The notes beneath the pieces are model-generated. The model saw only the letters and a list, made by a program, of their open reading frames with translations. It was not told where the DNA came from and did no database searches. The translations under genes were made by a program, and so were the position numbers. Positions 5,544 through 52,460 of a stretch of 52,460 nt of DNA are shown here, piece after piece. Each line of letters starts with the position of its first letter. The first letter of the stretch is position 1. The stretch is from Chitinophagales bacterium. Lineage in GTDB: Bacteria > Bacteroidota > Bacteroidia > Chitinophagales > JABDMM01. The stretch spans positions 1-52,460 of the forward strand of contig JABDMM010000022.1 of NCBI GenBank assembly GCA_013001465.1, given 5' to 3'.

Positions 5544-5557
5544 GGGTCAATTTTCTC

Positions 5558-5565
5558 CAAATATA
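5558..5565 (-). promoter_or_regulatory. Candidate -7 box for pyrD
   Basis: The plus strand reads CAAATATA, which is TATATTTG on the minus strand and matches the Bacteroidota -7 consensus TAnnTTTG. It lies 14 bp upstream of the pyrD TTG start. I do not see a clear -33 TTTG at the expected distance. Confidence 0.45.
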
Positions 5566-5584
5566 ATCAGTAAATTTTGATCGT

Positions 5585-6853
5585 ATGATAAACAAGAATA
5601 AACCACTGGCGGAAAGAGTTAGACCGGAACGCATTGATGAATTTGTGGGCCAAACACATCTATTAGCTGAGGATAAAGTTCTACACCAATTGATCAAGAG
5701 TAAGAGCTTGCCGTCGATGATCTTCTGGGGTCCCCCTGGAGTTGGGAAAACGACACTTGCAAACATCATTGCCAAAGAGATGGATCTATATTTTTTTACT
5801 CTAAGTGCTGTGGATGCCGGAGTAAAAGAGGTAAGAAAAATAATTGATGCGGCATCCAAAATGGATGGCGCGATACTCTTTATTGATGAGATCCACCGTT
5901 TTAATAAATCTCAACAGGATGCATTGCTTCATGCTGTGGAAAAAGGTGTTATTCATTTGATAGGAGCAACGACTGAGAATCCTTCTTTTGAAGTGATATC
6001 TCCTCTTCTTTCACGTTGCCAGGTTTATATTTTGGAAAATTTAAGTAAAAAGGAGTTGCTACAGGTGTTGGATCAGGCAATGGATAAAGATGAGATATTG
6101 AAAGGTAGAAATATAAAGATCGAAGAAAGTGACCTGTTGCTTAGGTATTCCGGGGGAGATGCGAGGAAACTCCTTAATCTCTTCGAGCTGGTCGTTCAAA
6201 CTTCTTCGAAAGGTCCACTTGTTATCACTGATGAATTGGTTAAAAATACCGCAAGACAACAAATGGCAGTGTTTGACAAGAGTGGAGAAATGCATTATGA
6301 CCTGATTTCAGCATATATTAAATCGATTAGAGGAAGTGACCCAAATGCTGCATTGTATTACCTGGCTAGAATGATCAAAGGTGGAGAGGACCCGAAGTTT
6401 ATTGCCAGACGTTTGCTCATTTTGTCTGCTGAAGATATTGGCTTGGCAAACCCTACTGCATTAGTCATCGCTAACAATTGTTTTCAAGCTGTCAATGTTA
6501 TAGGCTATCCGGAATGTGAGTTGATCCTGTCTGAAGTGACAACGTATCTCGCTGTCTCACCAAAAAGTAATTCCACTTATGTTGCGCTGAAAAATGCTAA
6601 AAAACTGGTGAATCAAACCGGAGATCTATCTGTGCCGTTGGCTATAAGAAATGCACCAACGAAATTGATGAAGGATCTCGATTATGGGAAAGAATATAAA
6701 TATGCTCACGACTTCAGCGATAACTTTACAAGCATGGAATTTATGCCGGAACAGGTTCAGGGACAAACTTTATTCGAACCTGCTAACAATCCAAGGGAGG
6801 GTGAGATCCGAAAAAGACTCAAGGAATTATGGGCCAGTAAATATGGCTACTAA
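5585..6853 (+). CDS. rarA: Replication-associated recombination protein A (AAA+ ATPase)
   Basis: 422 residues, the usual length. RarA/MgsA/WRNIP1 proteins act at stalled replication forks. Domains in order: Walker A GPPGVGKTT (about 51-59), Walker B with LFIDEIHRFNK (about 98-108), sensor 1 IGATTENPSFEV, an arginine-finger region SPLLSRC, the lid helices, and the C-terminal tetramerisation domain with EDPKFIARRLLILSAEDIGLANP. The ATG at 5585 fits the conserved NKPLAERVRPERIDEFVGQ start. It overlaps the convergent sulfatase gene by 4 bp at its stop codon. Confidence 0.96.
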   Translation: MINKNKPLAERVRPERIDEFVGQTHLLAEDKVLHQLIKSKSLPSMIFWGPPGVGKTTLANIIAKEMDLYFFTLSAVDAGVKEVRKIIDAASKMDGAILFIDEIHRFNKSQQDALLHAVEKGVIHLIGATTENPSFEVISPLLSRCQVYILENLSKKELLQVLDQAMDKDEILKGRNIKIEESDLLLRYSGGDARKLLNLFELVVQTSSKGPLVITDELVKNTARQQMAVFDKSGEMHYDLISAYIKSIRGSDPNAALYYLARMIKGGEDPKFIARRLLILSAEDIGLANPTALVIANNCFQAVNVIGYPECELILSEVTTYLAVSPKSNSTYVALKNAKKLVNQTGDLSVPLAIRNAPTKLMKDLDYGKEYKYAHDFSDNFTSMEFMPEQVQGQTLFEPANNPREGEIRKRLKELWASKYGY

Positions 6854-10760: not shown

Positions 10761-10871
10761 TGGTAATTTTAAATTATGAACTAATATAATCAAATATTCA
10801 GCCCTCTTATTAATCTAAATCCTAAGCATTCTTAAGTAACAGGATGGAAAAGGTTACGTATAATTTTATTG

Positions 10872-13196
10872 ATGAAACGACCCGGAATTACATTTAACTT
10901 GATCATAGTTATCCTGCTGATAGCTAATTCACTATACGGACAACTTGATCCCAGGATTCCTTTGAAGTTACATGAGCAGGTCATGAATAGATCTCAGGAA
11001 ACTGTTCCACTTCTCATCGAAGGAAATATTCAAGATATCAAGTCCTTTTGTTCAAGAACAAATTCGGTTCTGAAATTTTCAAATGGGAACATCGCTTCGA
11101 TCAATGTTCGATATAGCGATATCCCAAAGCTAGCTGAGATGCACTCGCTCACTAAAATTGAAGCACCTGTCACAACTGTCCGTCCATTGATGGATTCTGC
11201 TTTGATCAAAAACAATGTGTTCGGTGTTCATAGTGGATTACCTCCATTAACTCAAAATTACACTGGAAGGGATGTAGTCATAGGAATAATCGATGTTGGT
11301 ATTTATTTTGACCATAAGGATTTTCAGCGGGGTGATAGCAGTACCCGAATTCGATATATTTGGGATCAAAGGGTTAGTAACTCACCGAATGCACCCTTAG
11401 GATATGGATATGGTGAAGAATGGAGCTGGATAGATATCGATGCGGGAAATTGCACTCATGTAGAACCGTCGAATGGTTACGGACACGGGACTAATGTTAC
11501 CGGAATTGCAGCTGGAAATGGAAGTGCAAATGGTAGATTTAAAGGCGTAGCTCCAAATGCAGAACTTGTGATCGTGTCTATCAATGGCAACGACTTTCTA
11601 ACAAATGTTGTCGATGCTATAGATTACATATACAAAAAAGCGGATGCTTTAGGAAAACCATGTGTTATAAATACCAGTGTTGGAATTTATGAAGGCAGTC
11701 ATGATGGTAAGGATTTACACGCAAGGATAATAGAAAACCTGATAGATGATAAGGAAGGAAGAGCATTAGTAGCAGCTGCTGGCAATGCCGGAGGTGTAAA
11801 ATTTCATCTCGGTTATGATGTCGAAGAGGATTCTTCTTTTACCTGGTTTTTCGAGAACAATTCTTCTAAACCCATTTTTTACGAGGTTTATTCAGACACA
11901 CAGGATCTCAAAAATGTTGAATTCTCATTTGCAGCCGATAATCCCAGCCTATATTTTTACTATGGAAGAACAGAATGGCTCAATGTGGTCGATGATTTTG
12001 ATGTAGAGGAGGGTTCTCCAGATCTGGTTGTTCAAAGTATTTATGATCAAGGGACTTTAATTGGTCAGGTTTGGACAAGAGTAGAACTTTCCTTAGGAGT
12101 ATACAAGATAGAGGTACAGATCTTTCCGGCAGTGAATTCTCTCTACTGGAGATTCTCAACGAAGGGAGATGGACGGGTCGATCTCTGGTCAAATAAAACG
12201 TATACCGGTACTTCAAATATGATCCAGGCAGGATTGCCTTCTGTGCAAACTATGCCTGAGATCGCAACTTATAAGTTACCAGATGCCTTGCAAAATATGG
12301 TAAGCAGTTGGCAATGTTCTCCGAAAGTGATCACCGTTGCAAATTACGTGAATCGTACTGTGTATACGGATTATAATTTGGATCTACATGATGTGAATAG
12401 CGAGAATGGTGCTATACCTTCAGTATCGAATGATCTATATCCTACTTCCAGCTACGGTCCAGCAAGAACAGGTATCGTTAAACCTGATATTGCAGCAACT
12501 GGCAGCGCTACTTTATGTACAGGAAATCTGACAAATAACAATGCATTGATCGGTTCCGGACAAGGTTTTAAGGTCGCAGAGGGAGGCTTACACAATAGAA
12601 ATGGTGGAACTTCGATGGCATCGCCTGTAGTTGCCGGAATTGTTGCACTTTACCTTGAGAAGAACCCGAATGCCCGATGGAATGAGATCAAAGAAGCTAT
12701 CATTAGTTCAGCGAAATCAGATCATTACACAGGTATCACTCCGAATTATGGCTGGGGATATGGTAAAGTGGATGCCATGGCAGCGCTTTCGTTTCCGGTT
12801 GCTTATGGTTGCACGGATACTGCTGCATTTAATTTTGATCCTTTCGCTAATGTGGACGATGGAACCTGCGAATCAATAGTCTATGGGTGTACCGATATAT
12901 CTGCTGTTAATTATGATCCTCTCGCAAACACCGATGATGGAAGTTGTGACTATAACAGCGGGATCGATGGTCTGGATCTAACTAAAGCATTTGTATATCC
13001 TGTCCCTGCAAACAAGATATTGTTTGCAAGAGGCTTTAGATCTGGAACAAACTATAAGATCGTTGACAAATTAGGGAGAGCTATTTTAAGTGATAAGTTT
13101 TATCCCGATATGCAAATTGATATAGAGGTACTGAGCCCAGGTATCTATTATCTGCAAACCGATGAGCTTCATAGTAAATTCATCAAGACCAGATAA
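10872..13196 (+). CDS. Secreted subtilisin-like serine protease (S8) with T9SS C-terminus
   Basis: 774 residues from the ATG at 10872; the TTG codon just before it is an alternative. A signal peptide (FNLIIVILLIANSLYGQ) is followed by the S8 catalytic domain: Asp about 141 in GIIDVGIYFD, His about 205 in GYGHGTNV, oxyanion Asn about 305 in AAAGNAGG and Ser about 581 in GGTSMASP. The His-to-Ser distance is much longer than in classical subtilisin, showing an inserted domain (roughly 320-470). After the protease come two tandem cysteine-bearing repeats of the GCTD..A.N.DP.A..DDG.C type (about 646-694), then a roughly 70-residue sorting domain with YPVPA and GIYYL, typical of type A T9SS cargo. 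Likely exported and anchored or released at the surface. It stands alone between divergent and convergent neighbours. Confidence 0.92.
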   Translation: MKRPGITFNLIIVILLIANSLYGQLDPRIPLKLHEQVMNRSQETVPLLIEGNIQDIKSFCSRTNSVLKFSNGNIASINVRYSDIPKLAEMHSLTKIEAPVTTVRPLMDSALIKNNVFGVHSGLPPLTQNYTGRDVVIGIIDVGIYFDHKDFQRGDSSTRIRYIWDQRVSNSPNAPLGYGYGEEWSWIDIDAGNCTHVEPSNGYGHGTNVTGIAAGNGSANGRFKGVAPNAELVIVSINGNDFLTNVVDAIDYIYKKADALGKPCVINTSVGIYEGSHDGKDLHARIIENLIDDKEGRALVAAAGNAGGVKFHLGYDVEEDSSFTWFFENNSSKPIFYEVYSDTQDLKNVEFSFAADNPSLYFYYGRTEWLNVVDDFDVEEGSPDLVVQSIYDQGTLIGQVWTRVELSLGVYKIEVQIFPAVNSLYWRFSTKGDGRVDLWSNKTYTGTSNMIQAGLPSVQTMPEIATYKLPDALQNMVSSWQCSPKVITVANYVNRTVYTDYNLDLHDVNSENGAIPSVSNDLYPTSSYGPARTGIVKPDIAATGSATLCTGNLTNNNALIGSGQGFKVAEGGLHNRNGGTSMASPVVAGIVALYLEKNPNARWNEIKEAIISSAKSDHYTGITPNYGWGYGKVDAMAALSFPVAYGCTDTAAFNFDPFANVDDGTCESIVYGCTDISAVNYDPLANTDDGSCDYNSGIDGLDLTKAFVYPVPANKILFARGFRSGTNYKIVDKLGRAILSDKFYPDMQIDIEVLSPGIYYLQTDELHSKFIKTR

Positions 13197-30151: not shown

Positions 30152-30607
30152 TTACTTTACATTCTTAAATTGAGCGACTATTCGGGCAACTGAGGTCTCT
30201 ATCTGCCCGATGTGAGGATTGCCTTCAAGCATTAAAGCAAGCTTGCTGTAAAGGATCATATCACCTTTGCCGGTTATAAACTCTATATGGTCAAATCCCG
30301 ATGCGATGCATGAATCTACTGCCTTTTCAGCAATTTCAAGCTGAACCTGCAGCAGCGGAGTTCCAAAATCGAGCTCATTCTCCGAGATATGCAGATCGAT
30401 CACGTTCGATACAACTTCGATATCATAACTTTCATCTGTCTCATTATTCATCGCAACTATCTCGGCCACGAGATCAGCATCTATTTGTAAGATATCTTCA
30501 TCTTTGAGCTCCTCGAAATTAAAATCATCGCTTTTGATCTTGAAGCCACAGCTTTTACAGAATTTGGCTTTTTTTCGAACTTGTTTTTTGCAGTGTGGAC
30601 AGATCAT
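30152..30607 (-). CDS. Zinc-ribbon plus Smr-like domain protein
   Basis: 151 residues. An N-terminal zinc ribbon (Cys3, Cys6, Cys17, Cys20; MICPHC and FCKSCG) is followed by an acidic linker and a C-terminal Smr-like region: VIDLHISENELDF, LLQVQLEIAEKAVDSCIASGFDHIEF and ITGKGDMILYSKLALML. Smr domains act on nucleic acids in MutS2 and other proteins. The usual HGKG loop reads TGKG here, so nuclease activity is doubtful. The gene starts inside the SGNH gene stop (TAATG), tying it to the MBOAT-SGNH operon, which is unexpected. It may serve as an unrelated neighbour in translational coupling. Confidence 0.65.
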   Translation of the reverse strand: MICPHCKKQVRKKAKFCKSCGFKIKSDDFNFEELKDEDILQIDADLVAEIVAMNNETDESYDIEVVSNVIDLHISENELDFGTPLLQVQLEIAEKAVDSCIASGFDHIEFITGKGDMILYSKLALMLEGNPHIGQIETSVARIVAQFKNVK

Positions 30608-31560
30608 TATTGAAAGCAGTTTCTGATTTTTAATTCTTTTGTTAACTCCCGGCTAAAGCGAGATGCACCGATACGATTCAGGTGATGAATATCCCTGTAT
30701 TCTTCTACAACAAGAAAATCTTCATGGTACTTCCAGTCGATCAGCTCGGTTCCACTTTTTTCAACTTCTTCCTTGATGTATTCTAAGATCCAGTTAGAGC
30801 CATATTTGAATATTTTTGGCGAGATCACAAACACAACTTTAGAACCGCTTTCTTTTGCATTATTGATGAAGCGATGAAATATTTCAACTTTGTATGGATC
30901 TAATTCCAATTCTTGATTTAGTTCATCTCCGAACGAACTCTTGAGAACCTCATCGAGTCTCTCTTGTGTGAGTTTAGTATCAAATGGTTGGTAACCCTTA
31001 TAAAATTTATCTTTTTTACCCCAGTTCAGTAAAAATCCAATGATCATTGAATTATATGGATAGATCCGTGAGATTACTTTAAACCTTTCAAACTTGTTTC
31101 TTTTAAACACAATATCTCCGATATCATAATCTCTAACGAAGGGGAGCAATACGTTGAGGCGGATGTAGTCAGGCCTCGTTTCCCGAAGTACAAGATCTTT
31201 AGGTGATATATCGACTATAAATAACTTGGGCGTGTATCTGCTCAACATACATTCCTGAACCGCTGTGGCATAGATCAAACTCTGTCCTGGTATACCGGCA
31301 TTATAGCATGTTAAGCCACTTTCTTCTTCAATTATTTTACTGTCGTACTGACTATTGGCATAAGACGAGCCAAACACGATAATATCATCGGTTGTTCTCT
31401 CAACAGATTCAATGATCATGGGTTCCCAGCCAATGGTTTGTTGGTAAAACATCCATTTTAAAAGGGATCCAACAGCATAGTCTGCAATGAAAAGCATTAC
31501 AAGAACTATAATGATCTCTTTGACCAGTTTAAAATTGGAAGTAGATGAATTGTCCGCCAT
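30607..31560 (-). CDS. Membrane-anchored SGNH-like hydrolase/acyltransferase partner of MBOAT
   Basis: 317 residues from the ATG at 31558-31560. One N-terminal membrane helix (EIIIVLVMLFIADYAV) precedes an extracytoplasmic domain with SGNH blocks: DIIVFGSSYANSQYDS (block I with the Ser), CYNAGIPGQSLIY (block II with Gly), and a late DIHHLNRIGASRF that supplies the Asp-x-x-His pair. This resembles DltD, AlgX or AlgJ-type proteins that finish O-acyl transfer next to an MBOAT. It overlaps the MBOAT gene by 32 bp, a strong sign of a joint function. The acceptor is unknown; envelope polysaccharide is likely. Confidence 0.75.
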   Translation of the reverse strand: MADNSSTSNFKLVKEIIIVLVMLFIADYAVGSLLKWMFYQQTIGWEPMIIESVERTTDDIIVFGSSYANSQYDSKIIEEESGLTCYNAGIPGQSLIYATAVQECMLSRYTPKLFIVDISPKDLVLRETRPDYIRLNVLLPFVRDYDIGDIVFKRNKFERFKVISRIYPYNSMIIGFLLNWGKKDKFYKGYQPFDTKLTQERLDEVLKSSFGDELNQELELDPYKVEIFHRFINNAKESGSKVVFVISPKIFKYGSNWILEYIKEEVEKSGTELIDWKYHEDFLVVEEYRDIHHLNRIGASRFSRELTKELKIRNCFQ

Positions 31561-32983
31561 CAAAAACGCCTATAGTTAATATTATAATTACGATTGCAAC
31601 ATATGACAAGTATCTCAAAAATGGATACTTACTTTCCCAGAAAATTCCCTTCTTACCAAAAAACTCCTGCCGGATCTCTACAAAGATGAGGATCAATGCC
31701 GGAATTACAGCATAATATAATGGAGGAACTCGTCCTATTTGAGCGCCTCCTCGAGGTCCTAAGGTCTCCTGGATCTTATTAAAGTCAAAAAGATGAGTAA
31801 ACACATAGTATGCATCCTGAAAGTTACTGGTTGCAAACAGTGTATTGGAAAGTGTATTGATATGAAATGTTATAAATATCCCCAGAAAGATCGCCAGACT
31901 TTGGGGCAGCATTCCAAATATTTTCTTTCTTCTGTTTTCTGTTAATTTTTCAAAAGACAAAGCAATTCCATAGAATGCACCCCACGCTATATAGTTTCCG
32001 GATGAGCCATGCCAAAATCCACTGATGATGAACGTGATGAAAATGGCAAAGAGCGCTCCGTATATTTTCCAGGCTCTCCAGCGTATTGCAAGGGGAGTAT
32101 AGATATAATCAGTAAACCATTGGAACAGTGTGATGTGCCATCTTGTAAAGTAGTTCGTGAGGTTTCTCGCGAAGAACGGTCTATCGAAATTCTTGTGCAG
32201 TCTAAAACCCATTAACATTGCTGAACCACGAGCCATATCGATATAACCAGAAAAATCGCAGTATACCTGGAGTCCAAACAAGTAGGTTGCCATGATAAGT
32301 TGGATCCCATTGTATAACTCGGGGTTTGAGTAGATAAGACCAACGTACATACCCACACGATCTGCAATGACCAACTTTTTAAAAAGTCCCCAGGTTATCA
32401 GCTTTATTCCTGCCTTGAAAAGATCAGCATTGAAGGTCTTCTTTTCGCTGAACTGCACCAGTAAATTACGCGCTCTCTCAATCGGTCCGGAGATCAATTG
32501 AGGGAAAAATGCAACGAACAATGAAAATTTACCGGGGTTCTTTTCTGCTCTGTAAACACCGAGATAAACATCGATAGCATATCCAATGATCTGGAATGTG
32601 TAAAACGAAATTCCGATCGGTAATATGATATTGAGCGGACCAGGTGAATACGTGATATTCACCATCGCTAATGCATCACTTAAAACCTGGGTGAAAAATT
32701 CTAAATACTTAAAGTAAAAAAAGACGAATAGATTTCCTGCAAGGCATAAGGCTAAATAAATCGTTTGCCTTCGCTCACTTTCGGTTCTGTCAATACTTAT
32801 TGTTGCAAAATATGTTATTACAGTAGAGAATAGCAGAAGTATAATGTATTCTATCTTGAAGGAGAGATAGAAGAAATAACTTGCTCCCAATAACAGTACC
32901 CATCTGTATTTATGGGGCAGCAAGAAAAATGCTAACACCGTAAATGCAAGGAAAATTAAGTATTCTATAGAATTGAATAACAT
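31529..32983 (-). CDS. MBOAT-family O-acyltransferase (AlgI/DltB-like)
   Basis: 484 residues with about ten membrane segments. The first helices resemble AlgI (MLFNSIEYLIFLAFTVLAF and LLLGASYFFYLSF), LPIGISFYTFQIIGYAIDVY is the conserved middle, and the catalytic histidine is in FIISGFWHGSSGNYIAWG. AlgI passes acetyl groups across the membrane to a periplasmic transferase acting on alginate; DltB does so for teichoic acid alanylation. The gene heads an operon with the SGNH and zinc-ribbon genes. The polymer that is acylated cannot be read from the sequence. Confidence 0.92.
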   Translation of the reverse strand: MLFNSIEYLIFLAFTVLAFFLLPHKYRWVLLLGASYFFYLSFKIEYIILLLFSTVITYFATISIDRTESERRQTIYLALCLAGNLFVFFYFKYLEFFTQVLSDALAMVNITYSPGPLNIILPIGISFYTFQIIGYAIDVYLGVYRAEKNPGKFSLFVAFFPQLISGPIERARNLLVQFSEKKTFNADLFKAGIKLITWGLFKKLVIADRVGMYVGLIYSNPELYNGIQLIMATYLFGLQVYCDFSGYIDMARGSAMLMGFRLHKNFDRPFFARNLTNYFTRWHITLFQWFTDYIYTPLAIRWRAWKIYGALFAIFITFIISGFWHGSSGNYIAWGAFYGIALSFEKLTENRRKKIFGMLPQSLAIFLGIFITFHINTLSNTLFATSNFQDAYYVFTHLFDFNKIQETLGPRGGAQIGRVPPLYYAVIPALILIFVEIRQEFFGKKGIFWESKYPFLRYLSYVAIVIIILTIGVFDGGQFIYFQF

Positions 32984-33121: not shown

Positions 33122-34120
33122 TTACATTTTCTGGAATTCGATCTTTGGGAAACCATTTTCACCCAAACTATTGGTAAAGTCCAGAAATCTTAATTTGTAA
33201 AGTTCGCCAAGATTGTCTTTGATAACAAACACTTTATCGGTGAATATGGTATATGAACCATTGGAGATATCCACTTCCTTCCAATCGTATCCAATGGCAT
33301 CCCACTCTTCTGAATAGTTTAACGCTAATACATCGTTAATGGTCAGTTCTTCAAATGCAATGTTATCTACTTCAGCGACAGCAGTATGATTTGGATTGCT
33401 TAAGACTCCTGTTACCTGATAAGGTGTAAACGCTGGTACATAAAATGCCGTGGAGTATCTGGTAAATACCAGGTCCCAATCTGTTTTTGTTGGTTCGATC
33501 AGAATCTCAGTTTTGCTGTCTAATGATAGGTAAGTAAAATTGTATAATGGATTTCGCTTGATAGAAATTTCAGCTTCGTTGCTTCCGTTGAGGTCAGCGA
33601 TCTTTATTTTATAGTGATCATTTTCGCAAGCAATGATCTTCATTTTCATAAAACCAAGAATATCGTTGTTTTCATCCCTGCCAAGATCGATCACATATAC
33701 ATAACCATAACTTACAGGATTGGAAATGCTGAAATCTGCCCAGTTACCAATAGCGTTTGAGTCTGGGTTGCCACTAGGGATATCTATCGACCATTGTAAA
33801 GTATTGATGTCTGGTTCGATATCAAATTCTTTGTATCCGGTATTCGCGGCAAACATGGATTTTGACGAGTTAAGCCAAACGTAATATGATCCGGCTCTAT
33901 TATCAAAAGCAAGATCCCAATCGGTGATCTTACTGTAGGTTGGCACTGCACCAGTGCTAAGGTCGAAGTAAAACCTGTTACTGTAATCTGAACCCATCTC
34001 AAAAGTAAAAGTCATCGAATTCGTTCCGATCTGCGGTAGTTCTATAGGTTCTTCTTCCTGGAAACAGGATGAAAAAAGCATTATGATGAAAAAGCTATAA
34101 AGGATCCTTGTTGTTTTCAT
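33122..34120 (-). CDS. HmuY-like haem-binding lipoprotein
   Basis: 332 residues from the ATG at 34118-34120 (MKTTRILYSFFIIMLFSSC), with lipobox LFSSC; the longer frame upstream (to 34255) lies within the receptor gene and lacks a signal peptide. The mature part has HmuY-type beta features: NRFYFDLSTGAVPTYS, TDWDLAFDNRAG, TDWDLVFTRYSTAFYVP, VTGVLSNPNHTAVAEV, IGYDWKEV and LYKLRFLDF near the end. HmuY proteins bind haem and pass it to a TonB-dependent receptor. It begins one base after the TonB receptor stop (TAG-G-ATG), so it is translated from the same operon. Haem ligands could not be picked out. Confidence 0.82.
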   Translation of the reverse strand: MKTTRILYSFFIIMLFSSCFQEEEPIELPQIGTNSMTFTFEMGSDYSNRFYFDLSTGAVPTYSKITDWDLAFDNRAGSYYVWLNSSKSMFAANTGYKEFDIEPDINTLQWSIDIPSGNPDSNAIGNWADFSISNPVSYGYVYVIDLGRDENNDILGFMKMKIIACENDHYKIKIADLNGSNEAEISIKRNPLYNFTYLSLDSKTEILIEPTKTDWDLVFTRYSTAFYVPAFTPYQVTGVLSNPNHTAVAEVDNIAFEELTINDVLALNYSEEWDAIGYDWKEVDISNGSYTIFTDKVFVIKDNLGELYKLRFLDFTNSLGENGFPKIEFQKM

Positions 34121-34121
34121 C

Positions 34122-36353
34122 CTAAATGTTGATTTTAAGTTTTGTGAAGATTGAAATTCCTGTTCCAACGGGTGTGTACTCATTGTTTGGGGAATGAATT
34201 CCATTAATAGTCGCATTGCTCTTGACATCTTTAACATTGAAAAGATTCCTCCCACCGATTGTTAATCTTAGCTTTTCCTCAAAAAAAGATTTCCCGGCAG
34301 AAACTTCGAGCCAATGATAATCTTCAATGGTAAAAGAATAAATGTCACCACTTTCGGAGTCAATATAATAAGAGTCACGTTTACCATTATACTTGTAAGA
34401 GGCAGAAACATCAAGTCCAAACCTTGTTATTGTATATGACGCATTGCTGCTGAATTGAAGGAAAGGGTCGAGCTTGCTGGGGTCGTTTCCCATTTGACCA
34501 ACCTGGATCCAAACTGTGTTAACAGAATTCTCTAAGCGTAGACTTTTATTATGATATTGGATACCTGCTCTGCTATTCCAACTTTGAAACGTTTCAAAGT
34601 TCCTGTATGTATATTCCGTAGTATTAGGATCACTCAGAACCAACTCTATCTTGTCATGAATGGTAGAATATGAAGCCGTTAATTCTCCTGAAAGCATTTG
34701 CCTCTTGAAGCCCTTTTTTGCATTTATACTTACGTTTAAATAGTGACCATTTTCCGCTTTCAGATTTTCATTTCCTCTGATGTTGTGATTCACATCCACG
34801 AAGTAGAGATATAGTTCTTTTATTGATGGAGCCCTGAATCCCCTAGAATAAGATGCCCGAAAATCAATCTTATCGAAAGTATACTTGAGATAAAAGGCAG
34901 GAATTACCGGTGCCACATATTTGGAGTTATATATAAATCTAAGCGAAGGCTGAATTTCAAGCTTTTCATTAAAAACACGCCACTTCAATGAAGTATAATA
35001 AGCAAGATCTGTAATGTACTGCGCTTCATCTTGAATTCTTTCACCTTTAAACCGTTCATGCTCGCTTTGTATTCCATTCAATAAAGAAAGATCACCACTA
35101 TTTGTCTCAAAGGAATAAGATGTCGTCCCGAAGTAATTTTGAATTTTATTCGTGTCCTGATCTGAAGATGAAGGAGAGATTGTTTCTTCAAGATTGATCA
35201 AGTTTTTAATATAGGTATTCTTGATCCGCTTATAATATGAATACGAAACCGCTCCACTCAATACATGGCCTGGTTTGAAGGAATTTTTAAACTCTGCCAG
35301 GTACTGTTGCCGTGATGTTTTAAAATGGTCATCAAGTGCAATCGAAGCAAAAGGAGTAGCCGGGTTATAGCGATTTAAGATCTTTTCACGAAAAACCCTT
35401 CCTGAGAGGGTTAACTCTGTTCGTTTAATAATTTTCGAATAGTAGGCATTGCCAAAATACTGTTCCTTCGGATTCCAATCCAGATCCCTTGAGTTATCAT
35501 CGGTTGAAAATCCGCTAAAGAAGTACCTTCCAAAGCTGATTCCCATAGAATGGCCTTTCAAATTTGTAGAATAAGCACCATCAAGATCATACTTTCCTGT
35601 GCTTTCATACAATGCGTTTAGTTCCAATCTGCTTGGAAGTGCAGACTTTGTTTTTGTTATAATATTGATCACTCCAGCCATCGCATTGTTGCCATAGATC
35701 GCAGACTGCGGTCCCTCGATTATTTCGATCCTCTCCACATCACTAAGCAAGATTTGATTGATATCGATCTCGTTATTTAAGCGACCCGAAACAGGTACAC
35801 CATTAATAAGGAACTTAACATTTGCACCACCAAGGCCTCCGATTTGAATGTTTGAACCATATATATCGCTTTCAGAAAAACTGAAATTAGAAGACGAATT
35901 GAGCACATCCTTCAAATTCGATGACCCTTTCGCCGCAATTTCATCCTTCGAAATTATACGTACATCTTGAATGCTGCTTTCTACAAGAGTAGGTTTAAAC
36001 TGACTTGTAACGACAACTTCAGACAGTTCGATCTCATTTTGTTCAAGTATCACATGCAGTTCCTGGCCAGGGTTAACTGATCCTCGTTTTTCCAGAAATC
36101 CAACATAGCTTATAGTATAAGTGCTCGAAGAGTGCAGATCAATTTTAAATTCTCCTAGAAGATCCGTAACACCACCTATTTCTTTTCCATTTTCGACAAC
36201 AATGATCGATGCACCGATCAGCACATCGCCACTAAGGTCTGAAACCTTGAACTTAGTAGTTTTAACATCCTCCTGAGCTAACCCAAATTGTGTAAAGAAA
36301 AGAGTTAGGAGAAGAAAAAAAACTGATGTATTATTTTTTGATAAACCTGACAT
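34122..36353 (-). CDS. TonB-dependent receptor, haem-type
   Basis: 743 residues from the ATG at 36351-36353. Signal peptide ending near GLAQ, then a CarboxypepD_reg-like domain (about 30-110), a plug domain (about 120-230; VVVTSQFKP, VERIEIIEGPQSAIYG, NAMAGVINIITK) and a 22-strand-type barrel. The motif pair GFRAPSIKELY (about 505) and GNENLKAENG flanks a His in FVDVNHNI, the FRAP-His-NPNL arrangement typical of haem receptors. It uptakes its ligand with TonB energy. It overlaps the upstream HmuY-like T9SS gene by 23 bp and precedes the HmuY lipoprotein, strengthening a haem role over siderophore or vitamin B12. Confidence 0.88.
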   Translation of the reverse strand: MSGLSKNNTSVFFLLLTLFFTQFGLAQEDVKTTKFKVSDLSGDVLIGASIIVVENGKEIGGVTDLLGEFKIDLHSSSTYTISYVGFLEKRGSVNPGQELHVILEQNEIELSEVVVTSQFKPTLVESSIQDVRIISKDEIAAKGSSNLKDVLNSSSNFSFSESDIYGSNIQIGGLGGANVKFLINGVPVSGRLNNEIDINQILLSDVERIEIIEGPQSAIYGNNAMAGVINIITKTKSALPSRLELNALYESTGKYDLDGAYSTNLKGHSMGISFGRYFFSGFSTDDNSRDLDWNPKEQYFGNAYYSKIIKRTELTLSGRVFREKILNRYNPATPFASIALDDHFKTSRQQYLAEFKNSFKPGHVLSGAVSYSYYKRIKNTYIKNLINLEETISPSSSDQDTNKIQNYFGTTSYSFETNSGDLSLLNGIQSEHERFKGERIQDEAQYITDLAYYTSLKWRVFNEKLEIQPSLRFIYNSKYVAPVIPAFYLKYTFDKIDFRASYSRGFRAPSIKELYLYFVDVNHNIRGNENLKAENGHYLNVSINAKKGFKRQMLSGELTASYSTIHDKIELVLSDPNTTEYTYRNFETFQSWNSRAGIQYHNKSLRLENSVNTVWIQVGQMGNDPSKLDPFLQFSSNASYTITRFGLDVSASYKYNGKRDSYYIDSESGDIYSFTIEDYHWLEVSAGKSFFEEKLRLTIGGRNLFNVKDVKSNATINGIHSPNNEYTPVGTGISIFTKLKINI

Positions 36354-37572
36354 ATGATTGATTACCGAGCTCATCGTTCACAGATATTATGTATGAACCC
36401 AGAGCAAATTCTTCCACCGGTATTCTGTAATTGTTTAATCCTTTTTTAGCCAAAATAGGATTAGAGATGAGTTCCTTTCCAGACATATCGATGACTGATA
36501 AATTGTATTCGCTTTCATTCTTAACATCAAAAATAAAATTGACGACATGATCTGCTGGGTTTGGATAACAGCTTAGAGATGCAACATTCCGATCCTGAAT
36601 TTCAGAAATACCTACAGAGTTAAGTTTAGTTAAAGAGAATCGGATCTTTCCGGTAGCAGAACCACCATAATCGTCAAAAGCGATGTGATAGACATCTTCA
36701 TCTTTATCTTTAACGAAATAAGAAAGTGAATCCGGAACATCATACGTGAAGGTAGTATTGTTAAATATTTTCCAATCCCATCCTATGATGCTGATCTCAT
36801 TTGAGTAAGAATAATTTGCCGGATCAGCCTCGGCCAGATCGACTCCTCTGGCTTCGATAGTCTGAACATCAATATTTGTAAGTGCTCCAACAACCGGATA
36901 ATAAGTAAATGGCGCTACTTCACCGAGATAAGAACGGAAAACAATATCCCAGTCTGATGCCATAGGTTCTATGTCAAGAACCGCATTATTTACAATAGAA
37001 TAGTATACAAAAGATTTATTGGGGTAGTCAGATTTACTGAGAGTGAATGTTGATTCGACGGAATTATCAAGATTTGCAACCTTAATATTGTAAACAATAC
37101 CATTGTTAAGCTTTTCTATCCATATTTTTTTATAAGATCCATCATGTATTTTAATAACGAAGATCTTAATACCAATGAGAGTGCCCAGACTTTGGTATTG
37201 CCCCCAACCATAGTTTGGGTGGCCTGTTGCAAACTGGTTGAAAGAACCGTTATCCCAGGAAGTGTCTGAATTGTAAAGTTCGGTCATGTTTGTCGTATCC
37301 ACGCTGTTCCACTGAGTAGTATCATTGGAAGCCAAATCAAACAATTTCACTCCCGCGCCACCATTTGTTCTTACAGAAGCAGAAAATGCATTGAGCCAAA
37401 ACTGAAGGTCCCAATTGCTATTGTCTGTATTTACTTGTTCTCCTTGAGCAAGGCTGTAAAATGATTGATTTGTATTCCCACTTCCCAGCGTTACAGAATC
37501 TTGAACAAACACCTGGGCATGTAGAGATATCGATAGCATGCAGGCAATTGCCGGCATTAGAAAGTATTTCAT
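36331..37572 (-). CDS. HmuY-like protein with T9SS type A sorting domain
   Basis: 413 residues. A signal peptide (FLMPAIACMLSISLHAQ) leads to a HmuY-like region (about 20-330) that aligns by eye to the lipoprotein encoded two genes downstream: NWDLQFWLNAF, LDIEPMASDWDIVFRSY, YPVVGALTNIDVQTIEA, IGWDWKIF and VYHIAFDDYGGSATGKIRF. The last 75 residues (YPNPADHVVNFIFDV, YNLSVIDMSGKEL, ALGSYIISV) are a type A T9SS sorting domain. It is therefore probably exported through T9SS rather than lipid-anchored. First gene of a three-gene operon with the receptor and the lipoprotein. Haem binding is inferred from context. Confidence 0.82.
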   Translation of the reverse strand: MKYFLMPAIACMLSISLHAQVFVQDSVTLGSGNTNQSFYSLAQGEQVNTDNSNWDLQFWLNAFSASVRTNGGAGVKLFDLASNDTTQWNSVDTTNMTELYNSDTSWDNGSFNQFATGHPNYGWGQYQSLGTLIGIKIFVIKIHDGSYKKIWIEKLNNGIVYNIKVANLDNSVESTFTLSKSDYPNKSFVYYSIVNNAVLDIEPMASDWDIVFRSYLGEVAPFTYYPVVGALTNIDVQTIEARGVDLAEADPANYSYSNEISIIGWDWKIFNNTTFTYDVPDSLSYFVKDKDEDVYHIAFDDYGGSATGKIRFSLTKLNSVGISEIQDRNVASLSCYPNPADHVVNFIFDVKNESEYNLSVIDMSGKELISNPILAKKGLNNYRIPVEEFALGSYIISVNDELGNQSYVRFIKK

Positions 37573-46000: not shown

Positions 46001-46114
46001 GTGACTGTATAATAGCTTATTATAAAAGCATATTTAACAAATAATAAATATAGTTGAACAAACTAATTGCCATATCGTATAGAATCTCAAACCATAATAG
46101 GAGAAAACTACCTC

Positions 46115-49100
46115 ATGGCAAGAAAATTACTCATATTACTGATTATCTGTGGTTTGCTGACAGACGTTCATGCTCAGATCGCTGCAGATTTCAATAGTTC
46201 CACGCAGACCGGATGCAGTCCTTTGATCGTTAACTTTACTGATATTTCCACAGGAGGTCCTACAAGTTGGCTTTGGAATTTTGGTAATGGAAATACATCA
46301 ACGCAGCAAAACCCTTCTGCAGCGTATTTAAATCCGGGCATATATACAATTTCCCTGATCGCTTCTGGCGGTGGCTCTTCAGATACCATGATAAAAGTGA
46401 ACCATATTCAGGTTTACAATGATCCAACCCCGGACTTCATAGCAGATCAAGTTAACGGGTGTGTGCCGTTGACTGTCAACTTTACCAATCTAACGGTGCC
46501 AGGTGATCATTCCACTATTACATATACCTGGGATTTCGGAGATGGAAGCTTTAGTTCAGCAATAAATCCAACACATACATTTAACTCAACCGGTAACTTT
46601 AATGTGACGCTGATCGCTGTTGATGGGAACTCCTGTCAAGACAATATCAATAAAACAGGATATATCTCTGTTGCTAATAAACCAAACGCTAATTTTTCGA
46701 GCTTAAACAATGTAGGTTGTAATCCACCTCATAATGTCAATTTCTCAAACTCATCTAGTGGTTCGAGTTCATTGACGTATTTATGGGACTTTGGAGATGG
46801 TAATTCATCAGGTGCAACGAACCCGGTGAATACTTACATCGCCTATGGTTCATACGATGTTCAATTGATCGTTACCGATCAGTTTGGATGTCAGGATTCG
46901 ATCACAAGACTGAATGAAGTGAATATCATTGATGTGAATGCAAATTTTACACAAAGCATGACTTCAGGATGTATTGGTGAAACGTTCTCCTTTACGGATC
47001 AAAGTACACCAACTGGAATTTCACCTATTGGCTGGATATGGAATTTTGGAGATGGTAATGTGTCTACATTACAAAATCCAGTTCATCGGTATAATTCAGC
47101 AGGGACGTACTCAGTATCTTTGACTACTACTATGAATGGATGTTCAGACGTTCGAACAAAGAATAATCTGATCACTATTTTTCCCGATCCTGTGGCTTCT
47201 TTTACAAATGATATAAACGCTGTTTGTCAGCCTCCGGTAACGGTTAATTTTACTGATGCTTCTGTAAACGCGGTTTCACATGTATATTATTTTGGGGATG
47301 GAGATACATCACATGCTCAAAGTCCATCACATACTTATACTAATTATGGATCCTATATCGCAACTTTAGTGGTAACCAATGCTGATGGATGCACAGATAC
47401 TTTCAGGACATCACCACCAATTACTGTTCAACCACCTGTTGCAGACTTTTATGCAGATGCAAGCAATGGATGTATACCTATACCGGTTCAATTCTATGAT
47501 AGTAGTCAGGCTAATGAAACTATAGTAGCATGGTACTGGGACTTCGGAGATGGAAATACAGATTCCGTTCAGGATCCTGTTCATATCTATACTACTCAAG
47601 GAGACTATGCAGTGACTCTTGTCATTGAAACAACAAGTGGCTGTCGGGATACCATTATATATCCAAATTTGATCGAAGTAGGGCAGGAGCCTAATGTTGG
47701 TTTTGTCGCTTTACCTACTGTGTCATGTTTATTCACGGCAATATCTTTTAATGACCAAACCGATTTTGCAGACTTGTGGCTTTGGGATTTTGGTGATGGT
47801 GGTACATCAACTAGCCAAAATCCAACATATACCTATAGTGATACTGGGTTCTTTACTGTAAGTCTGGCAGTTTCAAATAATGGCTGTGCTGCTGATACCA
47901 TTATTGACAATTATGTTTATGTGTCTCCGCCAGATGCATTGTTTATACCGACATTCAACTGTACGAATACCATGGAGGTCGATTTTACAAATACTTCTAT
48001 TGGTGGAGATGTCTGGTGGTGGGCTGTAGATACCGGAGGACCAACTTGGGATACGGTCTATACTTATGATTTAAACTACATTTTCCCCGATACCGGTATC
48101 TATAATGTTTCACTATTCATGGAGGATACGGCATCAGGTTGCACAGATATTGAAACTCAATCTGTTACTATTGTTAACCCTGTTGCAAACTTTACAGCAA
48201 CTCCTACTGCAGGGTGCAGACCACTGATCGTCGACTTTACAAGTACCTCTACAGATGCGGTATCTTACATTTGGAACTTCTCAAACGGGCAAAATGCCTC
48301 TTCTCAATCACCAACAATAGTTATTGGTCAGCCCGGATATTATGGTGCACACCTTTACATTACTGATATTCATGGCTGTCAGAGAGATATTAATATCGAC
48401 AGTATAGTAGTTATCGCCGGACCAACAACAGACTTTACAACGGGTACGCCGGTCGGATGCACGCCACTTACAGTCGATTTTACAGATATGACAACTTTGT
48501 TTCTGACGACTAGCATTACTTCATGGAGCTGGGACTTTGGTGATGGAAATACTTCAACACTTCAAAACCCATCTAATGTATATGTAGCGAACGGAACTTA
48601 CAATGTTAGATTAACAACAGTAGATGATTGGGGATGCACACACACAGTAACAAAAACAAATTATATCGATGTTACTTATCCGGTAGCAGAGTTTACGGCA
48701 GATACTTTTTCGTGTCCGGGAAATCCGGTAACCTTTGGAAACCTGTCGAATGGCGTTGGAAACACTTATCAGTGGGACTTCGGAGATGGCAACTCAAGTA
48801 GTATTTCGAATCCTGTTCACAATTATCTTGTGGAAGGTTCTTATGACGTGGAGCTCATCGCTACTGATATAAACACATGTGCTGATACTATGTTGAAGCA
48901 GCTCTATATCAAAGTTCAATTACCTCAAGCGAAGTTTGTGTCGGATACGGCATTTTCAACTTGTCCTCCGCTTTTAGCAAATTTCACCGATTCATCGAGA
49001 GGAGATATCATATATTGGGAGTGGCATTTTGGTGACGGAAGTATGAGTAATCTGGAAAATCCTTCACATATCTATTCTTATGCGGATTCTTTTGATGTGA

Positions 49101-52100
49101 CATTAATTGTCATGAATGCCGATAGTTGCAGGGATACAACCACGGTCGAGGACTTTGCAATTGTGCTCGGTCCGAATGGAATATTTACAATGGTACCAAA
49201 TTCCGGATGTACTGATTTACCTGTTACATTCAATGCAGTCACACAGAATGCGGTTAACAGGACTTGGGATTTTGGAGATGGTTCAGTAATTGTAGCAACC
49301 GATACGATAACATATACTTATACCAATTCAGGATTATACTTTCCAAGTTTGATATTGACCGATGCTTTTGGTTGTGTTTTTACTGTGTCATCAACAGACT
49401 CGATTATAGCAGGTAGCCATAATGTTAATTTTACTGAAAGCCCCAGACACGTCTGTGTTCCGGGAACGGTGAATTTCACAGATCTTTCTACTGCATTTCC
49501 ACCTATTACTGGCTGGAAATGGTACTTTGGAGATGGAGATTCTTCATCGATACAAAGCCCCAGTCATCTGTATTCAACAGTTGGTAGTTATGATATAACT
49601 TTGATTACTGATAACGGGATATGTAAAGATACTCTGGTCAAACCGCAATGGATCGATGCTGATCAAGGTCCTGGAGCTGATTTTGGAATGTCATCTAATA
49701 CTGGATGTGTGCCAGCTACTATAAGCTTCTATGATTCTACAATTTCAGATAGCTCAGTTGGCACCTGGAGTTGGTCATTTGGCGATGGAAATGCAAGTTC
49801 AATGCAGAACCCAAGTCACACATATACTGTAGCAGGAACTTATAATGTACAGCTTATTGTACTTACCGTAGCAGGCTGTCTTGATACTGTTACTTATTCA
49901 GTCAATATTTATAATAATCCCAATGTCACGACATCTCCTGACAGGGTGATCTGTGATGGAGACTCAGTACTTATTTTTGCAACCGGTGGTAGTTTTTATA
50001 ACTGGACTCCGGGAGTGACTTTAACAGACTCTACGAATAATTTCCCGAGAGCTTTTCCAACTGCAAATACACAATATATAGTTCAGGTTTCTAATGGTTT
50101 TGGTTGTGTGACTGTCGATACGGTAAATGTGGCTGTCAACCCGTTACCGGCTGTCTCAGCAGGCCCCGACTTTACTATTTGCAACTTCGATACCGCGCAG
50201 TTAAATGGATCTGGTTCCGGTGTTACCATTGCATGGTCACCAGCTGCAAGTTTGTCTAGCACCTCAGTGTTAAATCCTTTTGCTTATCCTAACACAAGCA
50301 GAACGTACACATTGAGTGTTACGGACACAAATAACTGTACTGCTTCTGATGATATGATGGTAACAATTAATCAACTTCCAAACGTTTCAGCAGGTAACGA
50401 TACCTTTGTTTGTAATGGCACTAGTACTATACTTCAAGGAAGTGGAGCAAGCTTATACTCCTGGTCTCCAGGTACGTACCTTAATAATCCGTTTATAGCA
50501 AATCCTACTTCAACGCCTGCTTCTACGATAACGTATCTTTTGACAGGTGTCGATACAAACTGGTGTTCAAATTCTGCCTCAGTGACCGTACAGTATGTGG
50601 TTAGGCCAAATGCAAATGCTGGACCGAATCAGACCATATGCGAAGGTGATACAGCAATTTTGTCTGCAACCGGTGGTGATGGTTTTTCAGCGATATTATG
50701 GACACCGGGAGCTACCTTGATGGATTCAACTAGTAGAACTACAGGAGCGATTCCAAGTTTAAATACAACATATAACGTTGTAGTCACAGACACTTTCGGG
50801 TGCTCAGATAATGACAATGTTGATATTTATGTAAATCCAAAACCTTCAATGACTGTTTCTGCGGATACATTTATATGCATGAATGATTCAATAGAAGTAT
50901 CTGCAACTGGTGGTTTAACTTATAATTGGACAGATAATAATACCTCTTGCACTAGTTGTCAAACAACTTTTGTTCGACCTATTGCAACCGCTAACTATGC
51001 AGTTACTATTACTGATGTGAATACTTGTACAAATAGAGATACAGTAACCGTAGTTGTTAATCCATTACCAATAGGCGTTTTATCTAATGATACCACTATT
51101 TGTGACGGTGAGTCAACTTATTTGCGTGCCGATTCAGGAGTTTCTTACACATGGGCGCCATCTGCCACACTTTCTTGTTCTGGATGTCAGGTGCCTCTTG
51201 CAAGTCCTCCATCTTCGCAAGCATATGTTGTTGTGATAGATAATGTTTACGGATGTACGACAAGGGATACTGTGCAAGTGGATGTCTCTCCAATTCCCAG
51301 TCCTGTGATCAGTGGAAACAATGTGATCTGCCAGGGCGACACAACGCAACTTGTAGTCTCAGGTGGAGATAATTATTACTGGACACCAAATTTTGCTATA
51401 GACTGCCAAACTTGCGATACGATCAATATCTTTCCTCAGGTTAATGTTAGTTATATAGTTGAGGTGAGCAATATCTGGGGGTGTACTGTTTTCGATAGCA
51501 TGACAATAGAAACACGGCCATTTCCAGTAATCGATGCAGGACCAGACAGAACCATTTGTCTTGGTGAATCGGTACAAATGCAGGCTACAAGTAATGTTCC
51601 AAACAACGTTTGGAGCCCAAGTATATGGCTCAATGATCCTTCCGCTTTGGATGGAATTGCAACACCTATAGATACTACAACATTTATAATAACATCGACT
51701 TCTTTATCTAATTGTACTAGTCATGATACCATGAGAATTCATGTTATTGACAGGGTGAGGATTTCAGTTTCTCCAGATACCATTCTTTGTACGGGAGACT
51801 CTATTCAACTTTCAGCAGGCCCAATAGCAAATTCAGATAACGGAATCTCATACTCATGGAGGCCTGGTTTTTATCTGGATAACCCAACTATTGCCAATCC
51901 AACGTCCGGTACTTTGCAAGATATCACTTATATGGTGGTGGCTTCCAGTGAAACATGTATTCCTGATACGGCATACGTAAGTTTAGATGTGAAAAGTTTA
52001 CCCGCGATCGATGCAGGAGAGGATATTTTATCGGTTTCAGGTTCGCAGGTGCCTTTAAATCCATCTCAAAACTCCCTTTTAACTTATACCTGGACACCGG

Positions 52101-52460
52101 ATCAGGACCTTTCATGTGGTGTATGCCCGAACCCAATATTTATTGCAGATAGTTCTCAAACTTTTACTGTATCGGTAGTTGATCAATATGGTTGTATTGA
52201 ATCGGACTCTGTGAGAGTTAATGTTATAGGCGTCTGTGATCCGGGGATGATCCATGTAGCAAATGCCTTTACTCCCAACGGTGATGGTAAAAACGATATA
52301 GCAAGGGTAAGAACACAAGGAATCCATCAGATCGATTATTTCAGAATATACGATCGATGGGGACAATTAATATTTGAAACGGATAACATCTATGAGGGCT
52401 GGAACGGAACTATATCCGGAAAAATGTCGAATTCAGATGTCTTTGTATACTATGTTAGTG
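46115..52460 (+). CDS. Giant PKD/Ig-like surface protein with gliding-type T9SS C-terminus (3' partial)
   Basis: The frame is open from the ATG at 46115 to the end of the window, 2115 codons without a stop; the true end must lie a little downstream because the sorting domain is almost complete. A signal peptide (ARKLLILLIICGLLTDVHA) is followed by about 15 PKD-type repeats (about 23-1265, mean 83 residues), each with WxFGDG or a variant (the first at about 52, the last at about 1218; the eighth is degenerate, WWAVDTGG). Then about ten Ig-like repeats of 85 residues follow (about 1268-2035), with ICxGDS-type starts and a second Cys before the end. The C-terminus (ANAFTPNGDGKNDI, RIYDRWGQLIFET, YEGWNG) is the gliding-motility-associated type B T9SS domain. 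It is probably an adhesin or surface filament protein. Upstream A/T repeats may regulate it. Confidence 0.93.
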   Translation, partial: MARKLLILLIICGLLTDVHAQIAADFNSSTQTGCSPLIVNFTDISTGGPTSWLWNFGNGNTSTQQNPSAAYLNPGIYTISLIASGGGSSDTMIKVNHIQVYNDPTPDFIADQVNGCVPLTVNFTNLTVPGDHSTITYTWDFGDGSFSSAINPTHTFNSTGNFNVTLIAVDGNSCQDNINKTGYISVANKPNANFSSLNNVGCNPPHNVNFSNSSSGSSSLTYLWDFGDGNSSGATNPVNTYIAYGSYDVQLIVTDQFGCQDSITRLNEVNIIDVNANFTQSMTSGCIGETFSFTDQSTPTGISPIGWIWNFGDGNVSTLQNPVHRYNSAGTYSVSLTTTMNGCSDVRTKNNLITIFPDPVASFTNDINAVCQPPVTVNFTDASVNAVSHVYYFGDGDTSHAQSPSHTYTNYGSYIATLVVTNADGCTDTFRTSPPITVQPPVADFYADASNGCIPIPVQFYDSSQANETIVAWYWDFGDGNTDSVQDPVHIYTTQGDYAVTLVIETTSGCRDTIIYPNLIEVGQEPNVGFVALPTVSCLFTAISFNDQTDFADLWLWDFGDGGTSTSQNPTYTYSDTGFFTVSLAVSNNGCAADTIIDNYVYVSPPDALFIPTFNCTNTMEVDFTNTSIGGDVWWWAVDTGGPTWDTVYTYDLNYIFPDTGIYNVSLFMEDTASGCTDIETQSVTIVNPVANFTATPTAGCRPLIVDFTSTSTDAVSYIWNFSNGQNASSQSPTIVIGQPGYYGAHLYITDIHGCQRDINIDSIVVIAGPTTDFTTGTPVGCTPLTVDFTDMTTLFLTTSITSWSWDFGDGNTSTLQNPSNVYVANGTYNVRLTTVDDWGCTHTVTKTNYIDVTYPVAEFTADTFSCPGNPVTFGNLSNGVGNTYQWDFGDGNSSSISNPVHNYLVEGSYDVELIATDINTCADTMLKQLYIKVQLPQAKFVSDTAFSTCPPLLANFTDSSRGDIIYWEWHFGDGSMSNLENPSHIYSYADSFDVTLIVMNADSCRDTTTVEDFAIVLGPNGIFTMVPNSGCTDLPVTFNAVTQNAVNRTWDFGDGSVIVATDTITYTYTNSGLYFPSLILTDAFGCVFTVSSTDSIIAGSHNVNFTESPRHVCVPGTVNFTDLSTAFPPITGWKWYFGDGDSSSIQSPSHLYSTVGSYDITLITDNGICKDTLVKPQWIDADQGPGADFGMSSNTGCVPATISFYDSTISDSSVGTWSWSFGDGNASSMQNPSHTYTVAGTYNVQLIVLTVAGCLDTVTYSVNIYNNPNVTTSPDRVICDGDSVLIFATGGSFYNWTPGVTLTDSTNNFPRAFPTANTQYIVQVSNGFGCVTVDTVNVAVNPLPAVSAGPDFTICNFDTAQLNGSGSGVTIAWSPAASLSSTSVLNPFAYPNTSRTYTLSVTDTNNCTASDDMMVTINQLPNVSAGNDTFVCNGTSTILQGSGASLYSWSPGTYLNNPFIANPTSTPASTITYLLTGVDTNWCSNSASVTVQYVVRPNANAGPNQTICEGDTAILSATGGDGFSAILWTPGATLMDSTSRTTGAIPSLNTTYNVVVTDTFGCSDNDNVDIYVNPKPSMTVSADTFICMNDSIEVSATGGLTYNWTDNNTSCTSCQTTFVRPIATANYAVTITDVNTCTNRDTVTVVVNPLPIGVLSNDTTICDGESTYLRADSGVSYTWAPSATLSCSGCQVPLASPPSSQAYVVVIDNVYGCTTRDTVQVDVSPIPSPVISGNNVICQGDTTQLVVSGGDNYYWTPNFAIDCQTCDTINIFPQVNVSYIVEVSNIWGCTVFDSMTIETRPFPVIDAGPDRTICLGESVQMQATSNVPNNVWSPSIWLNDPSALDGIATPIDTTTFIITSTSLSNCTSHDTMRIHVIDRVRISVSPDTILCTGDSIQLSAGPIANSDNGISYSWRPGFYLDNPTIANPTSGTLQDITYMVVASSETCIPDTAYVSLDVKSLPAIDAGEDILSVSGSQVPLNPSQNSLLTYTWTPDQDLSCGVCPNPIFIADSSQTFTVSVVDQYGCIESDSVRVNVIGVCDPGMIHVANAFTPNGDGKNDIARVRTQGIHQIDYFRIYDRWGQLIFETDNIYEGWNGTISGKMSNSDVFVYYVS

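Follow-up and report, generated by a model that had tools for sequence, protein, structure and literature searches.

Three adjacent minus-strand genes of a Chitinophagales bacterium encode a TonB-dependent receptor flanked by two HmuY-like proteins with opposite export signals, one bearing a type IX secretion system (T9SS) sorting domain and the other a lipoprotein anchor. The window, i.e., the whole stretch of DNA that was analyzed, comprises 52,460 nucleotides of contig JABDMM010000022.1. We consider it probable that the locus is a Hmu/Hfp-like haem uptake operon with two hemophores, in a bacterium that depends on external haem. This reading draws on the computed gene order and its conservation, the homology and fold of the HmuY-like proteins, their opposite export signals, the haem-related neighbors of relatives, and missing haem synthesis genes.

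Two tandem-HmuY proteins around one receptor

The genes occupy positions 37572 to 33122, in the order T9SS-exported HmuY-like protein, TonB receptor, HmuY-like lipoprotein (open reading frame [ORF] list), with the following features.

36331..37572, minus strand: T9SS-exported tandem-HmuY binder, 413 aa, with signal peptide, two HmuY-type repeats and type A sorting domain (ORF, Pfam HmuY and Por_Secre_tail, TIGR04183, AlphaFold)
37033..37512, minus strand: first HmuY-type repeat of the exported binder, residues 21-180, containing the GHPNYGWGQY segment (hhalign)
36613..37032, minus strand: second HmuY-type repeat of the exported binder, residues 181-320 (profile comparison of halves)
36334..36567, minus strand: T9SS type A C-terminal sorting domain, residues 336-413 (Pfam, TIGR04183, Foldseek)
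34122..36353, minus strand: TonB-dependent receptor with CarbopepD_reg_2, plug and barrel (Pfam)
34752..34838, minus strand: receptor motif FRAPSIKELYLYFVDVNHNIRGNENLKAE, with His530 (750 aa ORF numbering) invariant in 16 homologues (alignment)
33122..34120, minus strand: outer-membrane HmuY-like lipoprotein, tandem HmuY, 332 aa, lipobox LFSSC, lipidated Cys19 expected (ORF, Pfam)
33554..34024, minus strand: first HmuY-type repeat of the lipoprotein, residues 33-189 (Pfam search of genome, profile comparison)
33134..33553, minus strand: second HmuY-type repeat of the lipoprotein, residues 190-329 (Pfam search of genome, profile comparison)

The order, coordinates, and spacing given in a preliminary description of this DNA were confirmed from the ORFs. 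The exported binder and receptor genes overlap by 23 bp if the receptor starts at 36353, an ATG located 8 codons into the longest ORF (which starts at 36374), and a gap of 1 bp separates the receptor stop codon from the lipoprotein ATG at 34120, which sits inside a longer GTG ORF. In nearly all loci compared, the lipoprotein gene comes after the receptor at translational-coupling distance, as expected for a lipoprotein-barrel complex such as HmuY-HmuR, which is among those confirmed experimentally (PMC12578637). Inspection by eye found no convincing promoter upstream of 37572. According to ORFs and Pfam, the flanking genes encode an MBOAT protein, a 318-aa protein without a Pfam match, and an aminotransferase; hmuSTUV, which would complete a classical hmuYRSTUV cluster, were not among the genes adjoining the operon. 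The MBOAT acyltransferase, the downstream 318-aa protein (which by eye resembles an SGNH/AlgX-type partner), and a zinc-ribbon/Smr protein lie at 30152-32983 and are likely a surface polysaccharide O-acetylation set.

Both binders scored above the Pfam gathering cutoff of 27 for HmuY (PF14064; 63.9 and 40.2 bits), in agreement with the family originally assigned to them. They had also been said to align along nearly the whole domain, and their similarity is far beyond chance, with 27% identity over 312 columns by BLASTP (E, 3e-18) and a profile-profile E value of 3e-49 over 281 columns; the motif pairs DWDIVF/DWDLVF, IGWDWK/IGYDWK, and VYHIAF/LYKLRF are present. A feature missed by the preliminary description is the duplicated architecture of the binders, both of which contain a pair of HmuY-type repeats. 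For the lipoprotein, the Pfam search of the genome returned two distinct HmuY matches, each beginning at the start of the model. Comparison of profiles matched the two repeats of the exported binder to each other (hhalign probability, 94.7; E, 5.8e-8) and, more weakly, the two halves of the lipoprotein (probability, 55; E, 1.2e-4). Between the binders, the halves match collinearly (E, 1.8e-24 and 2.4e-35), and the internal duplication therefore predates the split of the pair.

Predicted structures agreed with HmuY, most clearly for the lipoprotein (AlphaFold pLDDT, 92.7); the lack of a HmuY fold, one of the contrary outcomes listed in the preliminary description, was thus not observed. All 10 of its Foldseek matches in the PDB at an E value of ≤0.001 are HmuY-family proteins (PinO, HmuY, Tfo, BF2707, BfrB, and BVU_2192); its two domains keep the TM-scores against single HmuY domains modest (0.36 to 0.52 by target). 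The single lipoprotein sequence had no match in the PDB by phmmer, unlike its profile, for which the best sequence match was 8b6a, a protein that prefers protoporphyrin. For the exported binder (pLDDT, 92.1), the sorting domain dominates the Foldseek list; HmuY entries appear only at E values of 2e-3 to 7e-3 and rank below other beta proteins, so the support for a HmuY fold is weaker.

The export signals of the two proteins differ. The lipoprotein has an LFSSC lipobox, whose Cys19 column is conserved in 51 of 52 aligned lipoproteins, and it is presumably exposed at the cell surface. No lipoprotein anchor is present in the 36331-37572 product, which instead has an ordinary signal peptide and a T9SS sorting domain. 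The latter was matched by Por_Secre_tail and TIGR04183 (40.1 versus a cutoff of 23) and resembles the RemA C-terminal domain bound to the T9SS (Foldseek, 8gl6; TM-score, 0.63 by target). With a sorting domain above the cutoff and a T9SS in the genome (SprA_N E value, 4.8e-157), the protein has the features of a T9SS type A substrate. Type A sorting leads to release or surface anchoring of cargo. The T9SS cargo set is large, with about 150 Por_Secre_tail matches in the 3.0-Mb genome. Elsewhere in the window, an open-ended 2,131-aa PKD-repeat protein at 46067-52459 ends in a CHU_C type IX secretion signal domain, and a Subtilase-family protein at 10869-13196 carries a weak T9SS sorting domain. 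The latter has no link to the haem operon; such a secreted protease could free haem from proteins.

Recurrence and ancestry of the pair

The preliminary description proposed a search for the same three-gene order in other genomes, and this order was found repeatedly. We compared 96 receptor loci, consisting of the window and related loci, some of them near-identical; loci in named genomes were found by a pattern scan based on the receptor alignment, the lipoprotein alignment being too diverged for scanning. The order exported binder-receptor-lipoprotein on one strand occurs in 46 of the 96 loci and spans Chitinophagales, Flavobacteriales, and Bacteroidales metagenome-assembled genomes (MAGs). 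The remaining arrangements include receptor-lipoprotein-exported binder (5/96), a divergently oriented exported copy (6/96; Chryseobacterium and kin), receptor-lipoprotein without an adjacent exported copy (24/96), exported binder-receptor only (7/96, some of the seven cut by contig ends), lipoprotein-receptor (3/96), and the receptor alone (5/96). In 77 of 81 cases, the receptor and lipoprotein genes lie ≤30 bp apart. The exported copy lies ≤60 bp from the receptor in 29 of 46 loci; the others are more widely spaced, and most of these contain inserted genes. Among 150 genomes of the order, 58 carry a lipoprotein-type gene, and about 33 (counted manually from a list) carry both binder types on one contig.

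Several kinds of genes are inserted between exported binder and receptor. A conserved DUF6607 protein, which may be a new factor in haem or iron handling, is encoded there in L093, where the family was confirmed, and by eye in L037, L086, L091, and L097; it is sometimes followed by a membrane protein of ~140 aa without a Pfam match. Other loci have PepSY genes in this place. L104 has a second, different TonB receptor (4368-6605) before the haem receptor, and L096 has a CbiX-like chelatase protein (5355-6320), which by analogy with the proposal for HmuS may perhaps strip iron from haem.

The pair consists of ancient paralogues with fixed opposite export signals. In a tree of 131 sequences, built by a quick method after removal of the sorting domains and with groups set by profile score rather than by signals, one branch (SH-aLRT, 97) divides 64 exported from 66 tethered copies. 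All 64 exported proteins carry a sorting domain, which is absent from all 84 lipoprotein-type proteins; together with the lipobox cysteine, these counts uphold the proposed split of anchoring between the copies. That the binders are paralogues would also suit a redundant duplication with no division of labor, which we regard as highly improbable: identity between them is only 27%, the tree has a single deep split, and opposite export signals are retained in every lineage sampled. A recent duplication is ruled out by the tree.

Haem as the probable ligand

Haem is well supported as the ligand of the operon, by the receptor, by the neighborhoods of related loci, and by the gene content of the genomes. 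The haem receptor motif claimed earlier, of the FRAP/His/NxxL type, was substantiated: the receptors follow the pattern FRAP..KEL..F.D.NH.I.GN..L..E, with FRAP and NxxL boxes and a histidine between them that is kept in 63 of 68 motif-bearing relatives. Motifs of this kind are associated with haem receptors (PMC9331221). TonB-hemin (TIGR01785) is the best NCBIfam model for the window receptor, at 97.3 bits, below the cutoff of 316.85. Across the receptor clade, TonB-hemin and TonB-B12 scores are similar and do not separate it from BtuB-type receptors, so the receptor sequence alone does not decide the ligand.

The neighborhood genes point to haem, and the cobalamin or sugar receptor named in the preliminary description as a contrary outcome was not borne out. 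In three loci (L084, L107, and L163), the exported binder and the receptor are separated by four genes resembling a haem ABC importer plus HemS, namely, those for a periplasmic binding protein, a FecCD-type permease, an ATPase, and a HemS/ChuX-like protein. The L163 insert was checked; its periplasmic binding protein and FecCD permease were confirmed, and it matched HemS/ChuX (1.4e-74) and the haem ABC ATPase model (261.6 bits; cutoff, 261). Neither HemS nor a haem importer of the FecCD type was found in the genome of the window itself, which is 92% complete, and this weighs against the haem reading. A FecCD match in it was rejected as a haem permease, being a metal ABC-3 permease.

Ferrochelatase and ALAD were not found in this 92% complete genome, which encodes two haem-copper oxidases (COX1); external haem is therefore apparently needed. 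Cytochrome bd was not found in the genome, and the haem demand thus rests on the COX1-type oxidases. Among the 150 genomes of the order, ferrochelatase is absent in 50 of 58 that carry the lipoprotein and in 26 of the other 92 (Fisher P, 1.4e-12), a raw test that ignores shared ancestry, with both states occurring within several families.

Both proteins are putative haem binders, for which conservation suggests candidate ligands. Of 47 exported copies, 39 have a histidine near GWGxY, at a position that shifts between GHPxYGWG and TH; of 52 lipoproteins, 41 retain Met89. Each of these residues is a possible haem ligand. No invariant His/His, Met/Met, or His/Met pair was found in the binder alignments. 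The HmuY histidine of WLEFSH aligns with a hydrophobic residue here, and the second histidine of Porphyromonas gingivalis HmuY is not conserved.

These unconserved ligand residues would also suit another tetrapyrrole or a metal chelate (protoporphyrin, cobalamin, or a siderophore), as would the receptors of L163 and L084, which score best against TonB-B12 models, far under the cutoff, and the finding that certain HmuY homologues bind iron-free protoporphyrin and others neither this nor haem (PMC12106395). We judge such a ligand improbable. HemS and haem ABC genes occur within the same cluster in relatives, the receptor carries the FRAP/His/NxxL motif, and the lipoprotein is associated with ferrochelatase loss. 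Protoporphyrin is disfavored because it would be useless without ferrochelatase. Cobalamin and siderophores are disfavored since the 92% complete genome has no BtuC/FecCD permease, normally needed for their import.

Relay or parallel service, and comparison with known systems

Within a haem uptake operon, the T9SS would carry the first tandem-HmuY protein past the outer membrane, where it would pick up haem, either free in the medium or held on the cell surface. The lipoprotein would sit on the receptor as a partner or lid, like HmuY on HmuR, and hand haem into the TonB-driven barrel via the FRAP/His/NxxL loop. Transfer would then run inward, and hand-over from the exported to the tethered copy is plausible as the most economical reading of the conserved pair. 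We therefore put forward, tentatively, a two-stage relay within one family, from an exported to a receptor-bound hemophore after an ancient split, as a possible haem lifeline of Bacteroidota without haem synthesis. The 24 loci with receptor and lipoprotein but without an adjacent exported copy count against this account of the operon.

A serious rival to the relay is a parallel arrangement, in which each binder feeds the receptor directly and the two handle haem of different sources or redox states. The candidate ligands differ between the copies (His versus Met89), and HmuY homologues with Met or His ligands differ in their preferred redox state (PMC12106395). Moreover, each copy also adjoins the receptor alone, in the 24 receptor-lipoprotein loci and the 7 exported binder-receptor loci, some of which end at contig borders. 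A joint path, however, is suited equally well by the shared overall fold of the copies and by their strict co-occurrence in a single operon, seen in half of the loci. We consider parallel service possible but less likely than not.

The preliminary description held that known hmu systems have one HmuY lipoprotein, which is contradicted by published work: Prevotella intermedia, Bacteroides fragilis, and several Porphyromonas species have two or three HmuY homologues (PMC12106395), and a T9SS-secreted HmuY is known (PMC9618737). Like the window operon, the Hmu system of P. gingivalis combines a HmuY-family lipoprotein and a TonB receptor with a FRAP/NxxL type of motif in one operon. Its HmuY has a single domain with His/His ligation, whereas the window operon has tandem HmuY proteins, lacks hmuSTUV, and includes a second, T9SS-exported paralogue. 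The Hfp system of Flavobacterium psychrophilum (HfpR and HfpY) likewise combines a haem receptor with a HmuY-like hemophore that shares little sequence identity with classical HmuY; HfpY binds haem 1:1 and is cotranscribed with HfpR, and iron regulation was shown for the system (PMC9331221). That system has one HmuY-like protein, and no oppositely anchored pair has been described. The gene between hfpR and hfpY was considered as a second binder and rejected, as it encodes a DoxX protein.

A counterpart of the exported binder is C6N29_01035 of Flavobacterium columnare, with a HmuY domain and a Por_Secre_tail, which is secreted by the T9SS according to work of Thunes (2022) as cited in PMC9618737. 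Its deletion caused no growth or virulence defect (PMC9618737); it was studied alone, and a paired lipoprotein or cognate receptor is not reported in that paper. At an orphan locus of P. intermedia, hmuY adjoins a gene with a T9SS sorting domain, and both are strongly iron regulated; the published account does not call the product of the T9SS gene HmuY-like and mentions no receptor at this locus (PMC10434189). In Riemerella anatipestifer, the hypothetical gene B739_1415, next to a FepA-hmuY pair, is as strongly iron regulated as hmuY (PMC5429918). By analogy with related Chryseobacterium loci, where the divergent neighbor is a T9SS HmuY, B739_1415 may be the exported partner.

Outside the HmuY family, the HasA-HasR system provides a precedent for an exported hemophore that feeds a TonB haem receptor, as proposed here; it differs in having an unrelated fold, another secretion route, and a single hemophore. 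In the open-access literature, to which our survey was confined, we found no description of an operon with exported and tethered tandem-HmuY paralogues around one receptor. T9SS-secreted HmuY proteins and multiple HmuY proteins per genome being known already, what seems new is the conserved exported/tethered pair in one operon.

Hemophores of Bacteroidota have been studied mostly in oral and fish pathogens and as single HmuY proteins. The loci described here form a widespread set from environmental lineages, in which the two hemophores are anchored in fixed, opposite ways and which is statistically tied to ferrochelatase loss. With this set, it can be tested whether proteins exported by the T9SS supply a tethered partner of the receptor and from where uncultured Chitinophagales acquire the haem for their respiratory oxidases, possibly as shared goods from neighbors.
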